Below are positions 7,948 through 52,868 of a stretch of 64,000 nt of DNA, in pieces. The notes under the pieces were generated by a model. The model ran no database searches. It worked only from the letters and a program-made list of their open reading frames with translations, and was not told where the DNA came from. Numbering within the stretch: the stretch's first letter is position 1; each line of letters starts with the position of its first letter. The position numbers and the translations under genes were made by a program. The stretch is from positions 2,604,001 through 2,668,000 of the forward strand of contig NZ_CP157456.1 of assembly GCF_041549525.1 (NCBI RefSeq), given 5' to 3'. This stretch comes from Paenarthrobacter aurescens (GTDB taxonomy: Bacteria > Actinomycetota > Actinomycetes > Actinomycetales > Micrococcaceae).

Positions 7948-8730
7948 CTACAGCCCCTGCCACTCCGGCTTGTTGTCATAGGTGTGCCGATAATAATCGG
8001 CCAGTTTCAGCGAAGACGCAGCAGCCTCATCGACCAAAATCGTGGCGTGCGGGTGCATCTGAAGGATGGACGCGGCACAAATGGCAGCTACCGGCCCCTC
8101 CACAAAATCCCGAACGGCCTGAGCCTTCTGCGCACCTGTTGCGACCAACACCACATGCCGGGCGTCCATGATGGTCCCCAGCCCCTGCGTGACCACATGG
8201 TGGGGAACGTCGTCGATGCTGTCGAAGAACCTCGCGTTGTCCTTTCGCGTCTGCTCGATCAATGTTTTGATGCGCGTACGGGATGCCAGAGAAGACCCTG
8301 GTTCGTTAAAGCCAATGTGCCCGTCTGTCCCCACCCCGAGGATCTGGAGGTCCACTCCGCCCACAGCTTTGATGGCGTCCTCATAAGCCTGGCATGCGGC
8401 CTCCAGGTCCTCGGCTGCACCGTCGGGTCCATGGACGTTATCCGGCTTGATGTTCACCCGGTTGGTGAACTCGCGCCGGATCACCTCGCGGTAGGACTCG
8501 GGATGCCCTGCTTCGAGCCCCACGTATTCATCCAAGGCAAAACCGTGCGCCTGGCTGAAGTCCAATCCCCCGGCCTCGTAGCGGCTGGCCAGTTCGTCGT
8601 AAATAGGCAAGGGGGACGAGCCCGTTGCCAGGCCCAGCACCGCATTGGGCTTACGGCGAACCAACGATTCGATGGCGTCTGCTGCAAGAGCACCGATCTG
8701 CTTGGTGCCAGGGAGAATGACAACTTCCAT
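7948..8730 (-). CDS. nagB: Glucosamine-6-phosphate deaminase
   Basis: Converts glucosamine-6-phosphate to fructose-6-phosphate plus ammonia, the last step of amino-sugar catabolism; the preceding enzyme, nagA, is encoded separately at 18856-20106. The 260-residue protein has the family motifs LGLATGSSPLPIY (phosphate site), ALDEYVGL and GVGTDGHIGFNEPGSS. The ATG at 8730 is chosen because AAAGG lies 8 bases upstream; the GTG at 8736 would leave too short a spacing. Two direct repeats at 8747-8780 lie in its promoter region. Confidence 0.94.
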   Translation of the reverse strand: MEVVILPGTKQIGALAADAIESLVRRKPNAVLGLATGSSPLPIYDELASRYEAGGLDFSQAHGFALDEYVGLEAGHPESYREVIRREFTNRVNIKPDNVHGPDGAAEDLEAACQAYEDAIKAVGGVDLQILGVGTDGHIGFNEPGSSLASRTRIKTLIEQTRKDNARFFDSIDDVPHHVVTQGLGTIMDARHVVLVATGAQKAQAVRDFVEGPVAAICAASILQMHPHATILVDEAAASSLKLADYYRHTYDNKPEWQGL

Positions 8731-8746
8731 CGTCACGGCCTTTCTA

Positions 8747-8780
8747 GTTATGGGCGTCGAGTCCGGTTATGGGCTTCGAG
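8747..8780. repeat. Direct repeats upstream of nagB
   Basis: GTTATGGGCGTCGAG (8747-8761) and GTTATGGGCTTCGAG (8766-8780) differ at one base and are spaced 19 bp apart, about two helical turns. Their position 17-50 bp upstream of the nagB start suggests an operator or core-promoter duplication. They do not resemble the palindromic DasR site. Confidence 0.5.
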
Positions 8781-8836
8781 CTATCTGACAGAGAGGTTAT
8801 CCCATGTCCCACCTAGGAGACACGGTTGTTACGTCG

Positions 8837-10408
8837 TTACCGGTTCACGCTAAGTTGGGCAAACATCTCCGGGCCCCGCGCGTCCAACCATTTACCACCG
8901 AGACGCACACCCACCACGAAGAGGATGATGCCCAGCACAGGGCCCACAGCCAGATTGATCCATCCGGCTTCCGGACCTCCGCTGAATGCCTGAAAGGCCA
9001 CCAAGGCAAGCTCCGGAACGAGCAGGAGTGCCAGAAGCCCCATGCCAACGGCCTGGACTGCCAAAGTCTGCGCCACATTTCCTGGCGGCTTCTTGAACGG
9101 GCTGTCTCCGGGCAAAGGTACAGCGATGTTGTAGCGGGCGGAAATAACCGAGGAGAGCCCAAGGCCGGTAAAGAGAGTGCCCAGTGACAAACCCAGAAGG
9201 TTGGGAAGCCATTGCCACTCCCCTGTCACAAAAAGCGGTCCCACGGTAAAGACCAGCACCACAGGGAGGGAAATTGCCAAACACGCCATGGCCCGGCCAA
9301 GCCGGTCATCAACGCCCCGGACCCCGGCCGCGAGATGGAGAGCAAAAGCTGTGTTGTCATATGAGACATCTGCGCAGATGGACCACGCCATCACGAACGC
9401 GGTCAACGGCCCCAGGATCATCAGCAGGCCGTAACTTCCGCTTTGCGAACCGCTGAAGAAAAAGAGGACAGGAAACAGCGGAACAATCACCAAGGATGCC
9501 GCATAGCGCGGATCCTTCAACCAATAGATCAAGGCGCGGGCAGCAACTGCACCCGCCGGTGACCCCGGAAGAAGGCCGAACAAGCCAAGCTTTCCACCCT
9601 TCTTTGCCGAGCCTCCGGAATACGGCGGCGTCACCAGCGCCCGCTGCAACAGCACATGCCAGCACAGGAGCAGACCAACAATGGTTGCTGCGGAGATCAG
9701 GAACTTAAGCCCGGCGGCGACCACGTTGCCGGACTCAAGATCGCCACCCAGAGACCACGCTGCACCCAGCGGCGTCCAGGACACAGTGCGGGCCAGCACG
9801 GGTAGGTAGTCGGCGCTGCCCCGGACACCGTCCACGATGCCCACCATGATGGGCCCCAACAGCATCAGCGGAATGAAGACGATAATGCTGCTGACATCCT
9901 TGAAGCGCCTCGAGGATGCAAGGCCAGCCGTCGCAGTCGTGACCACCTTGGAGAGCACTATGCAGGTGACTGCGCCCAAAACGGCTCCCAGCAAGGCGCC
10001 GGCCACTGCCGGAAAACTACGCCACCAAGTGCCAACCGTTCCCAACGCTGTGAGCAAAGTGGCCATACCCGGAATGCCGATGAAACCGGACAAGGCAAGT
10101 CCCGCCAGGAGCTGCCTCGGCGGTATGGCGAACGTAGTGAAACGGGCAGGGTCCAACGTCATGTCCGCCGCAGATGCCACGAGCGGAATGATGGCCCACC
10201 CCAGGACAGCGGCCGCTCCACCCAATACCACTACAGTGTGGGCGATCTCCGGATCAGCCCACCGCAGCGCTATGAGGCCTCCAATCAGGAGGACCAGCAT
10301 TCCCAAAGCATAAAGAAGGCCCAAGGCCATGCCCACCAGCTGCCACGGGCTTCGCTTGAACCCGTTGAGAAGCAGGCGCCACTTGAGCCTTAGAAGGTGC
10401 GCAACCAT
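8837..10408 (-). CDS. ABC exporter permease
   Basis: A 523-residue polytopic membrane protein with about 12 hydrophobic segments, such as MALGLLYALGMLVLLIGG and ALLGAVLGAVTCIVL, and no nucleotide-binding motif. The ATG at 10408 has GGAGG upstream and lies inside the end of the ATP-binding gene (19-base overlap), so the pair is co-translated. Both half-modules appear fused in one chain, as in ABC-2-type exporters. Substrate is unknown. The long open reading upstream of the ATG is the antisense shadow of the ATPase gene. Confidence 0.82.
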   Translation of the reverse strand: MVAHLLRLKWRLLLNGFKRSPWQLVGMALGLLYALGMLVLLIGGLIALRWADPEIAHTVVVLGGAAAVLGWAIIPLVASAADMTLDPARFTTFAIPPRQLLAGLALSGFIGIPGMATLLTALGTVGTWWRSFPAVAGALLGAVLGAVTCIVLSKVVTTATAGLASSRRFKDVSSIIVFIPLMLLGPIMVGIVDGVRGSADYLPVLARTVSWTPLGAAWSLGGDLESGNVVAAGLKFLISAATIVGLLLCWHVLLQRALVTPPYSGGSAKKGGKLGLFGLLPGSPAGAVAARALIYWLKDPRYAASLVIVPLFPVLFFFSGSQSGSYGLLMILGPLTAFVMAWSICADVSYDNTAFALHLAAGVRGVDDRLGRAMACLAISLPVVLVFTVGPLFVTGEWQWLPNLLGLSLGTLFTGLGLSSVISARYNIAVPLPGDSPFKKPPGNVAQTLAVQAVGMGLLALLLVPELALVAFQAFSGGPEAGWINLAVGPVLGIILFVVGVRLGGKWLDARGPEMFAQLSVNR

Positions 10409-48518: not shown

Positions 48519-48551
48519 GTCCATAGACCAATAAACGTCCATAGATCAATA
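48519..48551. repeat. Direct repeats upstream of the flavin redox cassette
   Basis: GTCCATAGACCAATA (48519-48533) and GTCCATAGATCAATA (48537-48551) differ by one base with an 18-bp period. They lie 50-80 bases before the lipoprotein gene and are candidates for a regulator-binding site. Confidence 0.5.
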
Positions 48552-48600: not shown

Positions 48601-49095
48601 ATGACTACGCCACTCCGTAAGAGCCTCTACGTTGGTTTCGCCGGCCTCTCCATCATTGGAACAGCCGCTGCCTGCGCCCCCACAACTGAAGCCCCCACAA
48701 CCCGTACTCCGGCTACAGAGGATGGCGGACAGGCAGCCACCGGCAGCCCAACTTCTGCAGGCACGTCCTCGTCAGCGGCTGTCGCTTCCACCGGCGCGTC
48801 CACTTATAAGGACGGAACCTACAGCGCCGACGGCACGTACACCTCTCCCAATGGCCAGGAAAAAGTGGGCGTTGAACTGACGCTGGCTGCAGACAAGGTT
48901 TCTGCGGTGAACATCACGGTCCACCCTTCAAACCCCAATACCAAGAAGTTCCAGGGTGAGTTTGCCGGTGGCATCGCCGGGCAGATCGTTGGAAAGGACA
49001 TCGACGAACTCAACGTCTCCAAGGTGGCTGGATCGTCGCTGACGTCCGGCGGCTTCAACGAAGCCGTGGAACAGATCAAGTCCCAGGCCAAGTAG
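48601..49095 (+). CDS. FMN-binding-domain lipoprotein
   Basis: 164 residues. The first 25 are a signal peptide with a lipobox-like end (TAAAC, C25), then a Ser/Thr/Ala/Pro linker of about 40 residues, then an FMN-binding domain (GTYTSPNGQEKVGVELTLA, VSAVNITVHP, VGKDIDELNV). In typical ApbE targets the flavinylated motif is SGAT; here the equivalent site reads AGSS (143-146) followed by LTSGGFNEAVEQIK, so Ser146 would be the FMN-carrying residue. It precedes apbE by 5 bases. It should be a cell-surface electron carrier. Confidence 0.82.
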   Translation: MTTPLRKSLYVGFAGLSIIGTAAACAPTTEAPTTRTPATEDGGQAATGSPTSAGTSSSAAVASTGASTYKDGTYSADGTYTSPNGQEKVGVELTLAADKVSAVNITVHPSNPNTKKFQGEFAGGIAGQIVGKDIDELNVSKVAGSSLTSGGFNEAVEQIKSQAK

Positions 49096-49100
49096 GGGCC

Positions 49101-49973
49101 ATGCCGCACCCTGGATGGAGCACTTTCAGCTTCGAAGGGATCGGTACTCAATGGGAGATTTCGACGCCCGGGGATCTTGCTCCCGGCATCCAGGAGGAGT
49201 TGCTGGAGACCGTCGCGGAGTACGACCATACGTGGTCACGGTTCAGGTCCGATTCCCTGGTCTCCGGCCTGTCCCGTGCTCCGGGCGTGATCAGCTTGCC
49301 GGGACATGCCGCCGCCCTCCAGGAGGTGTATTCGGCTCTGTATCGCATCAGTGACGGCGCATTGACCCCCTTGATCGGCAGCAGCCTGGAGCGGCTGGGT
49401 TATGACTCCTCCTACGCGCTTGCTCCTTCCGGGAGTCCTTTGGCCCCGCCCCGCTGGGAGGATGTCCTCCACTGGTCGGGACCTGAGTTGGCTGCAAGGG
49501 AGCCTGTGGTGCTGGACGTGGGAGCCGCCGGCAAGGGCCAACTCGTTGACCTGCTGGGCGATGTCCTGAGGGAGCAAGGGCAAAGCGACTTTCTGGTGGA
49601 TGGAAGCGGCGACATGCTGCACGCCGGCGACCATCCGGTCACCGTTGCCTTGGAGCACCCCTACAACCCACGGCAGGCCATAGGCACCCTGGAGTTGGAT
49701 AATGCTGCATTGTGCGCGTCCGCTTCGAACCGCCGTACTTGGGGAGACGGTCTTCACCATGTTCTGGATGGGACTACGGGCAAGCCAATAGGCACCACGG
49801 TGGCCACGTGGACCGTGGCCGCGAGCGCGCTGGTGGCGGATGCGCTGGCTACGGCGTTGTTTATGGTCGAACCACCCCGGCTGGAAGGTGAGTTCGACTT
49901 CTCGTGGCTAACCGTGTCTTCCAGTGGTTCCGCCGCGTTTTCGAACCGTTTTGAGGGGAGACTGTTCACATGA
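49101..49973 (+). CDS. apbE: FAD:protein FMN transferase ApbE
   Basis: 290 residues. It attaches FMN from FAD to Ser/Thr of extracytoplasmic flavoproteins. Family motifs are LDVGAAGKGQLVDLL, FLVDGSGDMLHAG, SNRRTWGDGLHHVLDG and VADALATALFMV. No signal peptide is visible, so it may modify its target before or during export, or the N-terminus may be misassigned. It sits between its presumed target and the membrane reductase, overlapping the latter by 4 bases. Confidence 0.92.
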   Translation: MPHPGWSTFSFEGIGTQWEISTPGDLAPGIQEELLETVAEYDHTWSRFRSDSLVSGLSRAPGVISLPGHAAALQEVYSALYRISDGALTPLIGSSLERLGYDSSYALAPSGSPLAPPRWEDVLHWSGPELAAREPVVLDVGAAGKGQLVDLLGDVLREQGQSDFLVDGSGDMLHAGDHPVTVALEHPYNPRQAIGTLELDNAALCASASNRRTWGDGLHHVLDGTTGKPIGTTVATWTVAASALVADALATALFMVEPPRLEGEFDFSWLTVSSSGSAAFSNRFEGRLFT

Positions 49974-51472
49974 TTGCCGCTAAGTCCCGAGTGGACACCT
50001 GGTTGGGCCGCTTCACTATGTACCGCCTGATTCTCTGGGTGCTGGGCATTCTGGCGGCCTATAGCATGGTCCTGAACCTCTTGGGGTGGTTGACGTTCGG
50101 CCTGCCTGAGATGGTGGTCCATTTAGTGCTTTGCCTGGGCGTGACCTACGCATCCAACAGCTTGCTTGCCAGGATTTTCGGCGTCAAGCCGCACACAGAG
50201 TCCTCGCTGATCACCGGGCTGCTGCTGTATTTCCTGTTTTGGCCCGCCTTTGGGGTGATGGATATGGCCGGCGTTGCTCTGGCGTGCGTGCTGGCCAGCG
50301 TCTCCAAGTATGCGCTGGCCTTCCGTGGGCGGCATATTTTCAACCCGGCCGCCGCAGGAGCCTTCATTACGGGCCTGACAGGGTTGAACATCGCCACGTG
50401 GTGGGCTGCCACCCCTTCCATGTTGTGGCTTCTGGTCCCGGGAGTGGTGCTGGTCCTGTACCGCACCCGGAAGATGCTGATGGCCGCCGTTTTCCTGGCA
50501 GTTGCCACCAGCGTCATTACCGTGGAGCTGCTCAGCCGCGATATGACCGTTGGCCAGGCCTTGTGGCAGTCCCTGGCGCAACGGCCGTTGCTGTTCTTCG
50601 TGGGCTTCATGCTTTCCGAGCCTCTCACCTTGCCTCCCCGCCGCTGGCAGCAGTTGGTGCTTGCCGCCGTCGTGGGTGTTGTCTTCGCGGTTCCGTACAA
50701 CTTCGGTTTCATTGCCAATTCCCCGGAACTGGCACTGCTGCTGGGCAACCTCATTGCTTTCTTCCTGGGTCAACGCGGTGGCGTCCAGCTGACCTTCAAG
50801 GGCTCACGCCCACTTACCCCTGCCAGCACTGAATTCAGCTTTGAACCACGCAGGCCGGTGCGTTTTGCAGCCGGGCAGTATATGGAGCTGAACCTTCCCC
50901 ACGCAGGCTCGGACGGTAAGGGGCGTCGCAGGGTCTTCAGCATCACCAGCCCGCCCGGCGCAGAGGAAGTCACTTTCGGCGTCGGCACGGCTGAGCCCCT
51001 TTCCACAGCGAAGAAAGCATTGTTTGCGCTTCGCCCCGGAGACACTGTTGCGGCAACTGCCGTGGGTGGGGACTTTGTGCTGCCGAACGACGCCGGGAAA
51101 CCGGTCCTGCTCATCGCTGCGGGAATCGGCATCACCCCTTTTCTGTCCCAGCTTGCGGCCAAGGACGCTGACCGGGATGCTGTGGTGCTGTACCTGGCCA
51201 AGAGCCGCGATGAGTTGGCTGGTGTGGAACAACTGGAAGCCTCGGGCGCCACCGTGATAGCCCGGCTTGCGGACGGGTCCGCTCCCCCGCAGTTCATGCT
51301 CGACGCCGGCGACTCCAGGATCGATGCCCCGCGCCTCAAGGAACTGGTTCCGGATATCGGGAACCGGGAGGTGTTCGTCTCCGGCTCACCGGCAAGTGTG
51401 GACGCACTGCGCGCTGCAGCACGCGGCGCAGGAGCCCGCAGGGTCCATGTGGACTCGTTCGCCGGCTACTGA
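49970..51472 (+). CDS. NqrB/RnfD-like membrane domain fused to FNR reductase domain
   Basis: 500 residues. Residues 15-270 form about 8-10 membrane helices related to the NqrB/RnfD electron-transfer subunits (RHIFNPAAAG at 121-130, LLLGNLIAFFLG). Residues 280-500 are a ferredoxin-NADP reductase module: the FAD site RVFSITS (321-327) and NAD(P) site IAAGIGITPFL. Unlike NqrB and RnfD no SGAT-type flavinylation motif is visible in the membrane part. The design predicts that NAD(P)H electrons enter at the cytoplasmic module, cross the membrane and reach the flavinylated lipoprotein. The three genes are one operon. Confidence 0.88.
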   Translation: MIAAKSRVDTWLGRFTMYRLILWVLGILAAYSMVLNLLGWLTFGLPEMVVHLVLCLGVTYASNSLLARIFGVKPHTESSLITGLLLYFLFWPAFGVMDMAGVALACVLASVSKYALAFRGRHIFNPAAAGAFITGLTGLNIATWWAATPSMLWLLVPGVVLVLYRTRKMLMAAVFLAVATSVITVELLSRDMTVGQALWQSLAQRPLLFFVGFMLSEPLTLPPRRWQQLVLAAVVGVVFAVPYNFGFIANSPELALLLGNLIAFFLGQRGGVQLTFKGSRPLTPASTEFSFEPRRPVRFAAGQYMELNLPHAGSDGKGRRRVFSITSPPGAEEVTFGVGTAEPLSTAKKALFALRPGDTVAATAVGGDFVLPNDAGKPVLLIAAGIGITPFLSQLAAKDADRDAVVLYLAKSRDELAGVEQLEASGATVIARLADGSAPPQFMLDAGDSRIDAPRLKELVPDIGNREVFVSGSPASVDALRAAARGAGARRVHVDSFAGY

Positions 51473-51785: not shown

Positions 51786-51827
51786 GAATTCAGTTGGTCA
51801 GACTGATAGCTAAAGGGGTTTGCCGTG

Positions 51828-52868
51828 ATGTGCTCGATCGTCCCGCCGTACATGCTTCGCAAGTTAGCCGCCCAAAACGAGCCCCGGCTGCGCGCTGTGG
51901 CAAGGGCTGCCAAAGAATCGCTGCTGCACATCAAAGACTTGCAGGCCATTCGCACAGCACCCATTCCGCAGGCGCCTCCCAGCGCCCGCCAGGCCAAGCC
52001 GGGCCCGCCCAAGCGGACCATTTACGATGCTGAGTCTTCAGAGGCCTTGCCCGGCCGCGTGGTCCGGAAGGAAGGTGCAGCGCCTACCGGGGACGTGGCT
52101 GCCGATGAGGCCTACGACGGCCTGGGGAGTACCCACCGGCTCTATGGGGAGATCTTTGGCCGTGATTCCATCGACGATGCCGGCCTGGTCCTGGATGCAA
52201 CTGTCCACTACGGGAAGCTGTACGACAACGCTTTTTGGGACGGCTCCCAGATGGTTTTCGGCGATGGCGATGGGCAGATCTTCCAGCGCTTCACCAAATC
52301 CCTCAGCGTAATCGGCCACGAACTTGCTCACGGCGTTACCCAGTACACGGCCAATTTGGCCTACCGGAACCAGGCCGGGGCACTTAATGAGTCCATGTCC
52401 GATGTTTTTGGCGTCCTCGTGGAGCAGTACCTGAGGCAGGAGACTGCAACGCAGGCGAGCTGGCTGATCGGCGAGGGCCTGTTTACGGACCAGGTCCAGG
52501 GCGCCGCCCTGCGCTCCATGAAAGCTCCCGGCACTGCCTACGACGACGACGTCCTGGGCAAGGATCCGCAGCCGGACTCCATGGATACCTATGTTCGGAC
52601 CAGTGCTGACAATGGCGGTGTCCACATCAACTCCGGCATCCCCAACAAGGCTTTCCATGTGGTGGCTACGGAGCTTGGCGGACATGCGTGGGAAGCCCCT
52701 GGCCAAATCTGGTACGGCACGCTGACCAGCGGAAGCCTTCCTGTGACGTGCACGTTTGGAAAGTTCGCCAAGACCACCGTTGCTACCGCAGAGGAACTTT
52801 TCGGATCCGGTTCAGCGGAGCATGACGCCGTCCTGAAGGCGTGGGAGACTGTGAAGGTCAAGGTTTAG
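51828..52868 (+). CDS. Protealysin-type M4 metalloprotease
   Basis: 346 residues, a thermolysin-family zinc peptidase of the protealysin type. The short N-terminal propeptide starts MCSIVPPYMLRKLA, closely like the protealysin propeptide with its conserved Pro-Pro. There is no signal peptide. The zinc motif is HELAH (164-168) with the third ligand E188 in GALNESMSDVFG and the catalytic His in DNGGVHINSGIPN. A GTG at 51825 is an equally spaced alternative start. The next gene is an emfourin-like inhibitor, the same pairing as in Serratia and Photorhabdus. Confidence 0.93.
   Translation: MCSIVPPYMLRKLAAQNEPRLRAVARAAKESLLHIKDLQAIRTAPIPQAPPSARQAKPGPPKRTIYDAESSEALPGRVVRKEGAAPTGDVAADEAYDGLGSTHRLYGEIFGRDSIDDAGLVLDATVHYGKLYDNAFWDGSQMVFGDGDGQIFQRFTKSLSVIGHELAHGVTQYTANLAYRNQAGALNESMSDVFGVLVEQYLRQETATQASWLIGEGLFTDQVQGAALRSMKAPGTAYDDDVLGKDPQPDSMDTYVRTSADNGGVHINSGIPNKAFHVVATELGGHAWEAPGQIWYGTLTSGSLPVTCTFGKFAKTTVATAEELFGSGSAEHDAVLKAWETVKVKV

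Follow-up and report, generated by a model that had tools for sequence, protein, structure and literature searches.

An NQR/RNF-like operon of Paenarthrobacter aurescens pairs a predicted lipoprotein with an ApbE that lacks an export signal

Introduction

NQR/RNF-like systems were described from 127 clusters in 127 genomes, mainly of Actinobacteria and the candidate phyla radiation (Meheust et al. 2021, PMC8238504; published work is cited here from its open-access text). These clusters encode an NqrB/RnfD-like protein fused to a NAD-binding domain together with a flavin mononucleotide (FMN)-binding domain, and a one-way transfer of electrons from reduced nicotinamide adenine dinucleotide (phosphate) (NAD(P)H) to the outside was proposed; the iron transporter VIT1 occurs in six of them. 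A complex of this kind was later modelled, and its flavinylation site was noted to be missing (Huang et al. 2024, PMC11334425). Here we analyze a three-gene operon in a 64,000-nucleotide stretch of Paenarthrobacter aurescens (NZ_CP157456.1, positions 2,604,001 to 2,668,000; hereafter the window), which encodes a lipoprotein, an ApbE flavin transferase and an NqrB/RnfD-like protein fused to a flavin reductase. We consider it probable that the operon is a flavinylation-linked electron export system in which Ser146 of the lipoprotein would be flavinylated in the cytosol, prior to export.

ApbE, the flavin adenine dinucleotide (FAD):protein FMN transferase, is typically periplasmic and membrane-anchored, and cytosolic ApbEs are named for the soluble fumarate reductase of Klebsiella and for kinetoplastids, not for exported targets (PMC12052999). 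We found no discussion of a signal-less ApbE with an exported target in the open-access text that we searched, including PMC8238504, PMC11334425, PMC12052999, PMC10339131 and PMC12174285 (figures and supplements aside), and such a discussion may be in print elsewhere.

Results

The operon is a member of the NQR/RNF-like class. Its three genes encode proteins of 164, 290 and 500 residues, with a gap of 5 bases between the lipoprotein gene and apbE and an overlap of 4 bases between apbE and the fusion gene. The same 4-base overlap is present in 75 of 77 loci of the genus. The first-pass annotation had given this layout correctly to the base, and fold comparison agrees with the identities it predicted for the three modules. 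The features are as follows.

48601-49095, + strand: lipoprotein of the FMN_bind fold, 164 residues, presumed extracytosolic electron-accepting subunit (translation, alignments, fold comparison)
48673-48675, + strand: codon of the lipobox cysteine, Cys25 (read from the translation)
49030-49044, + strand: presumed flavinylation motif G-S-S-L-T, residues 144-148 (alignment, profile alignment to 8p2a, motif count)
49036-49038, + strand: codon of Ser146, which aligns with the acceptor Thr of SGAT
49101-49973, + strand: ApbE FAD:protein FMN transferase, 290 residues, without signal peptide or lipobox, the sole ApbE found in the genome
49970-51472, + strand: NqrB/RnfD-like membrane domain fused to an FNR-type NAD(P)H:flavin reductase, 500 residues
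49970-50773, + strand: membrane domain, residues 1-268, RnfD/NqrB fold without flavinylation motif (fold comparison, profile alignment, motif scan)
50774-51469, + strand: FNR domain, residues 269-500, predicted to bind FAD and NAD(P)H (domain and fold comparison)

As in the described NQR/RNF-like systems, an N-terminal NqrB/RnfD homologue is fused to a C-terminal NAD-binding domain, the extracytosolic FMN_bind subunit is homologous to NqrC/RnfG (profile alignment, fold comparison and lipobox), apbE stands alongside, and the membrane domain has no site for covalent FMN. The window locus differs in its motif, GSSLT and not SGAT, in its ApbE without an export signal, which is not discussed in the text of PMC8238504 or PMC11334425 outside figures and supplements, and in that several of its domains fall under the Pfam cut-offs. 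The first-pass annotation had presented the three genes as a compact flavin-based electron-export cassette; the route is supported, but the cassette is not new, because the system has already been described (PMC8238504, PMC11334425). With Na+-NQR and RNF the operon shares the NqrB/RnfD fold, the NqrF-type FNR fold and the NqrC/RnfG-type FMN domain, whereas it consists of only two structural proteins and ApbE, its membrane domain lacks the flavinylation motif, and the fusion has no visible ferredoxin-like domain. A complete Na+-NQR or RNF gene set was not seen: inspection by eye, which covered the neighbouring frames and not the rest of the genome, revealed no further Nqr/Rnf subunit.

The window ApbE begins right at its catalytic fold, with no in-frame ATG, GTG or TTG upstream. 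It shows no sign of the secreted or lipid-anchored state that is typical, though not obligatory, for ApbE. The ApbE domain scores 128.8 bits, and HHVLD..TG.P and AD.LAT are preserved in alignments; the roles of the conserved His, Asp and metal-binding residues are taken in part from PMC12052999. The genome is complete (a single contig of 4.36 Mb) and contains this ApbE only.

As a leader we counted a lipobox, or a 15-residue stretch with a mean hydropathy of at least 1.7, within the first 40 residues, and all starts up to 70 residues from the ApbE domain were considered. None of the ApbEs at 100 cassette loci has a leader at any of these starts, the maximum hydropathy being 1.47. An initial set had comprised 96 of these loci, as L080, L085, L088 and L117 failed the length or E-value filter; the leader count then covered all 100. 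From 50 other loci of the class (30 from class-wide matches and 20 hand-chosen stretches, not a random sample) we scored 51 more ApbEs; a hydrophobic leader was found in none, although two contain a lipobox-like tetrapeptide. The control, scored with the same cut-off, consisted of 30 ApbEs found elsewhere in the phylum, in other classes: 26 have a leader and four fall short of the rule, one of these with a lipobox. The control favours canonical ApbEs, since its loci are those with the strongest matches in a phylum sample of 149 genomes, 71 of which matched.

Leaders are missing from the sampled ApbEs of the class, while their likely targets look exported; therefore, either flavinylation occurs before export or ApbE leaves the cell by an unrecognised route. 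Judged from the sequence, attachment in the cytosol before export, on the serine of GSSLT, is the simplest reading and most likely the correct one, because this ApbE lacks an export signal and no other was found in the genome. FAD, the FMN donor, is made in the cytosol, and the general secretory (Sec) pathway may tolerate bulky adducts. The pre-export order is also the simpler one since the motif lies near the C-terminus and good ApbE substrates include short terminal tags (PMC12052999). That ApbE attaches FMN to extracytoplasmic carriers had been transferred to this locus by the first-pass annotation. The enzyme indeed stands beside a likely lipoprotein target, but the rule is not simply transferable to an ApbE without an export signal, a lack that had been overlooked.

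The 51 further ApbEs include 21 signal-less ones at 20 loci with other actinobacterial apbE/FMN_bind pairs. The FMN_bind gene lies directly upstream of apbE in 19 of the 20, and each of the 21 FMN_bind frames has a possible start that yields a hydrophobic N-terminal segment. These loci differ from the window in their motif, which is [S/T]GA[S/T] in 14 of 20 and never GSSLT. Many clusters of this sort are MsrQ-like according to Meheust et al. (PMC8238504).

The window lipoprotein carries a Sec-like signal. We collected lipoproteins from 94 of the 100 cassette loci (L103, L117, L123, L126, L139 and L145 were left out). All 94 have a lipobox, and all keep GSSLT at 18-20 residues before the C-terminus, while in two deeper relatives the alignment places SGAT or TGAT at this position. 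Twin-arginine translocation was rejected as a general export route, as a twin-arginine-like start is present in only 3 of the 94. The window genome encodes one convincing FMN_bind-like protein; the next best match has an E-value of 0.024 and covers the N-terminal half only. Three other genomes of a single contig each (G096, G197 and G207) also contain one ApbE and one cassette lipoprotein apiece.

To assess conservation we searched the genus in 61 genomes, among them that of the window. The fusion is present in 52 at better than 1e-150 and absent from nine; in G030 and G053 it is found in two frames. The cassette lipoprotein and a close ApbE homologue are absent from the same nine genomes, one of which (G027) is 68% complete. 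In seven of the nine (L291-L297) the only FMN_bind protein is another one, whose motif is SGAT or GGAT, and two have none; a distant ApbE match of 32-33% identity was detected in two of the nine. Two of the nine also keep partial matches (G009:C5:113328-113588 and G056:C3:238195-238485), 54-58% identical to the final 80-90 residues of the fusion, which are possible remnants.

When the class was sampled evenly, the fusion was matched at 1e-25 or better in 28 of 394 genomes, which belong to 6 of 137 genera. The phylum sample gave matches at 1e-30 in 30 of 396 genomes; eight of these cover the whole fusion and 22 a reductase domain only. Many deep-branching actinobacterial genomes (22 of the 396) encode stand-alone reductases of about 230-250 residues that resemble the FNR half (L190-L201). 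The first-pass annotation had named as damaging to its reading that homologues of the fusion never occur with apbE and FMN-binding genes. This is not the case: we tabulated the neighbours in 20 stretches taken from the 28 matching class genomes, and all 20 distant loci have the gene trio in the same order and on the same strand. In L070 and L072 the lipoprotein gene lies about 2.6 kb from apbE, with four genes between. In two loci of one family, L063 (8227-8784, + strand) and L074 (8240-8788, + strand), a MOSC-domain gene is located between apbE and the fusion gene, either by chance or as a possible partner; another candidate gene, near L077, has no Pfam match. L077 itself (G231; 8641-10119, − strand) has an in-frame TAA inside the fusion gene of a divergent cassette whose lipoprotein and ApbE frames are open, reflecting either a sequencing error or decay.

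Among deep-branching genomes, the fusion of G565 and G806 adjoins an FMN_bind-type gene bearing SGAT or TGAT. In G565 a signal-less ApbE, encoded by the genome's only apbE gene, is placed between the two, and in G806 only an ApbE fragment is called. We give even chances to the wider reading, that in Actinomycetes and at least once deeper in the phylum signal-less ApbEs flavinylate exported flavoproteins inside the cell and the FMN-bearing proteins then cross the membrane. Any precomputed Pfam domain is missing in 119 of the best 120 of 2408 fusion homologues, and one genome collection contains at least 580 fusion-related stretches, the best 80 of which were checked for the other two genes. Set against the 127 clusters from the smaller and older collection of 2021 (PMC8238504), these numbers suggest that Pfam-based surveys undercount the NQR/RNF-like system.

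We analyzed 24 fusions for possible electron carriers. The membrane domain has no NqrB/RnfD flavinylation motif in any of them, and nothing in the window fusion corresponds to RnfD residues 143-216 in a weak profile alignment (E-value 0.006, its first segment not being significant by itself). Covalent FMN on the fusion was rejected, as the only SGAT of the window protein (residue 425) lies in the FNR domain and is found in none of the other 23. His122 of the membrane domain is present in 24 of 24 fusions and the next His (75) in only 15, and no Cys is conserved. A haem or Fe-S conductor is unsupported by this conservation, and the paired conserved His of haem-based transmembrane reductases (MsrQ, NOX) was not found. 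With one invariant His and no conserved Cys, flavin is the most plausible conductor in the membrane domain. The first Foldseek row for the fusion is SpNOX (8qt6), a bacterial NADPH oxidase that likewise has a membrane conductor fused to an FNR domain but differs by its conserved pair of haem-ligand His. This match is not one rigid body, because the root-mean-square deviation is 17.6 over 482 columns.

In the route that we propose, NAD(P)H would reduce FAD in the cytosolic FNR domain of the fusion, flavin bound non-covalently in its NqrB/RnfD-like domain would carry the electrons across the membrane, and these would pass to covalent FMN on the lipoprotein outside. ApbE would attach this FMN to Ser146 of GSSLT while the lipoprotein is still unfolded or nascent in the cytosol, ahead of Sec export and lipidation. 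The reduced lipoprotein would hand its electrons to an acceptor outside the operon's coding, such as ferric iron, a quinone, O2 or a wall enzyme. The potential of NAD(P)H is about −320 mV. Since that reported for SaFMN3, −184 mV, lies above it, outward electron flow is likely. The path from NAD(P)H through FAD and a membrane flavin to an ApbE-matured lipoprotein FMN, already drawn in the first-pass annotation, is supported by domains, folds and conserved gene order and fits the published proposal (PMC8238504, PMC11334425).

The nearest relatives of the fusion, among the matches listed, belong to Paenarthrobacter and Arthrobacter. Upstream of the operon lies a divergent gene that is presumably argS. 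The operon is followed by tRNA-Arg(ccg) and a gene for an M4 thermolysin-family metallopeptidase (51825-52868, + strand); such a gene is found downstream in 71 of 80 loci of the genus. Within the genus the neighbours are syntenic and presumably housekeeping genes such as argS, lysA and hom; among those listed, other families have different neighbours. Among the neighbours listed for the genus and other families, we saw no reductase, iron transporter or regulator that accompanies the cassette. An alignment of the window with 14 relatives revealed a conserved block about 130-175 bases 5′ of the start of the lipoprotein gene; it may be a promoter, either that of the operon or that of the divergent gene. 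No sigma-70-type match was found, and the tRNA was the only Rfam element. Upstream of the lipoprotein gene there is also a direct repeat, two copies of GTCCATAGAYCAATA 18 bases apart (48519-48551), which is probably local because it is missing in the 14 aligned relatives.

Discussion

Several points weigh against cytosolic flavinylation of Ser146. The leader rule, based on hydropathy and lipobox and not on SignalP, detects only 75 of the 94 cassette lipoproteins at the same cut-off and is thus not fully sensitive. In an early study ApbE was reportedly needed outside the cytosol in vivo, and a cytosolic ApbE gave no growth without thiamine (PMC12052999). The motif stretch of the window lipoprotein, S-K-V-A-G-S-S, retains the Gly and the terminal Ser of D-x-x-[S/T]-G-A-[S/T] but deviates at three positions, so that flavinylation is not certain. 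The early study, like the usual periplasmic, membrane-anchored state of ApbE, would fit an enzyme that leaves the cytosol in some unrecognised way and acts on the exported lipoprotein, as ApbE does in other bacteria, with the same electron path. This is unlikely in view of the missing hydrophobic leader in the 100 cassette and 51 further ApbEs, and the cytosolic origin of FAD also speaks against it. The non-canonical motif, together with a Pfam FMN_bind score under the cut-off, could instead mean that the lipoprotein is unflavinylated, its motif decayed, and that ApbE serves another protein. We give this little credence: GSSLT is kept in all 94 lipoproteins, the lipoprotein gene accompanies apbE at all 20 distant loci and is absent where apbE is absent, and the genome holds no second convincing FMN_bind-like protein. 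Moreover, serine reportedly serves ApbE as an acceptor when swapped for threonine, although modification is then lower by 10-55% (PMC12052999).

The remaining alternatives concern the destination of the electrons. Nqr, with these domains, ends at quinone (PMC11334425), and no dedicated acceptor gene recurs next to the cassette; the operon could accordingly encode an NAD(P)H:quinone oxidoreductase whose membrane domain reduces menaquinone, with the lipoprotein FMN as an intermediate or side branch. We regard this as possible but doubtful, as the neighbouring frames show no further Nqr/Rnf subunit by eye and Meheust et al. take partial clusters as one-way export (PMC8238504). The place of SpNOX as first Foldseek row, yet with the poor superposition given above, and the O2 consumption reported for reduced SaFMN3 would be consistent with a haem-free NADPH oxidase-like action, in which reduced external FMN and O2 yield superoxide or peroxide. 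The fusions, however, lack the conserved haem-ligand pair. O2 reactivity is common in free or exposed flavins and nothing marks it as the purpose here, which makes such an action improbable.

Thus, we favour electron export through a lipoprotein that would be flavinylated in the cytosol. The class itself is already known, and the testable point is the place of action of the flavin transferase. A cytosolic-looking ApbE with an exported target departs from the usual picture of such enzymes. If true, flavinylation ahead of export would turn the accepted sequence of these two events around, and FAD export would no longer be needed. It would also raise the question of whether Sec can carry a protein that already bears covalent flavin, for which the window genome is well suited because it has one ApbE and one likely target. 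The operon would represent a genetically minimal case of flavin-only transmembrane electron export, in easily grown soil bacteria.
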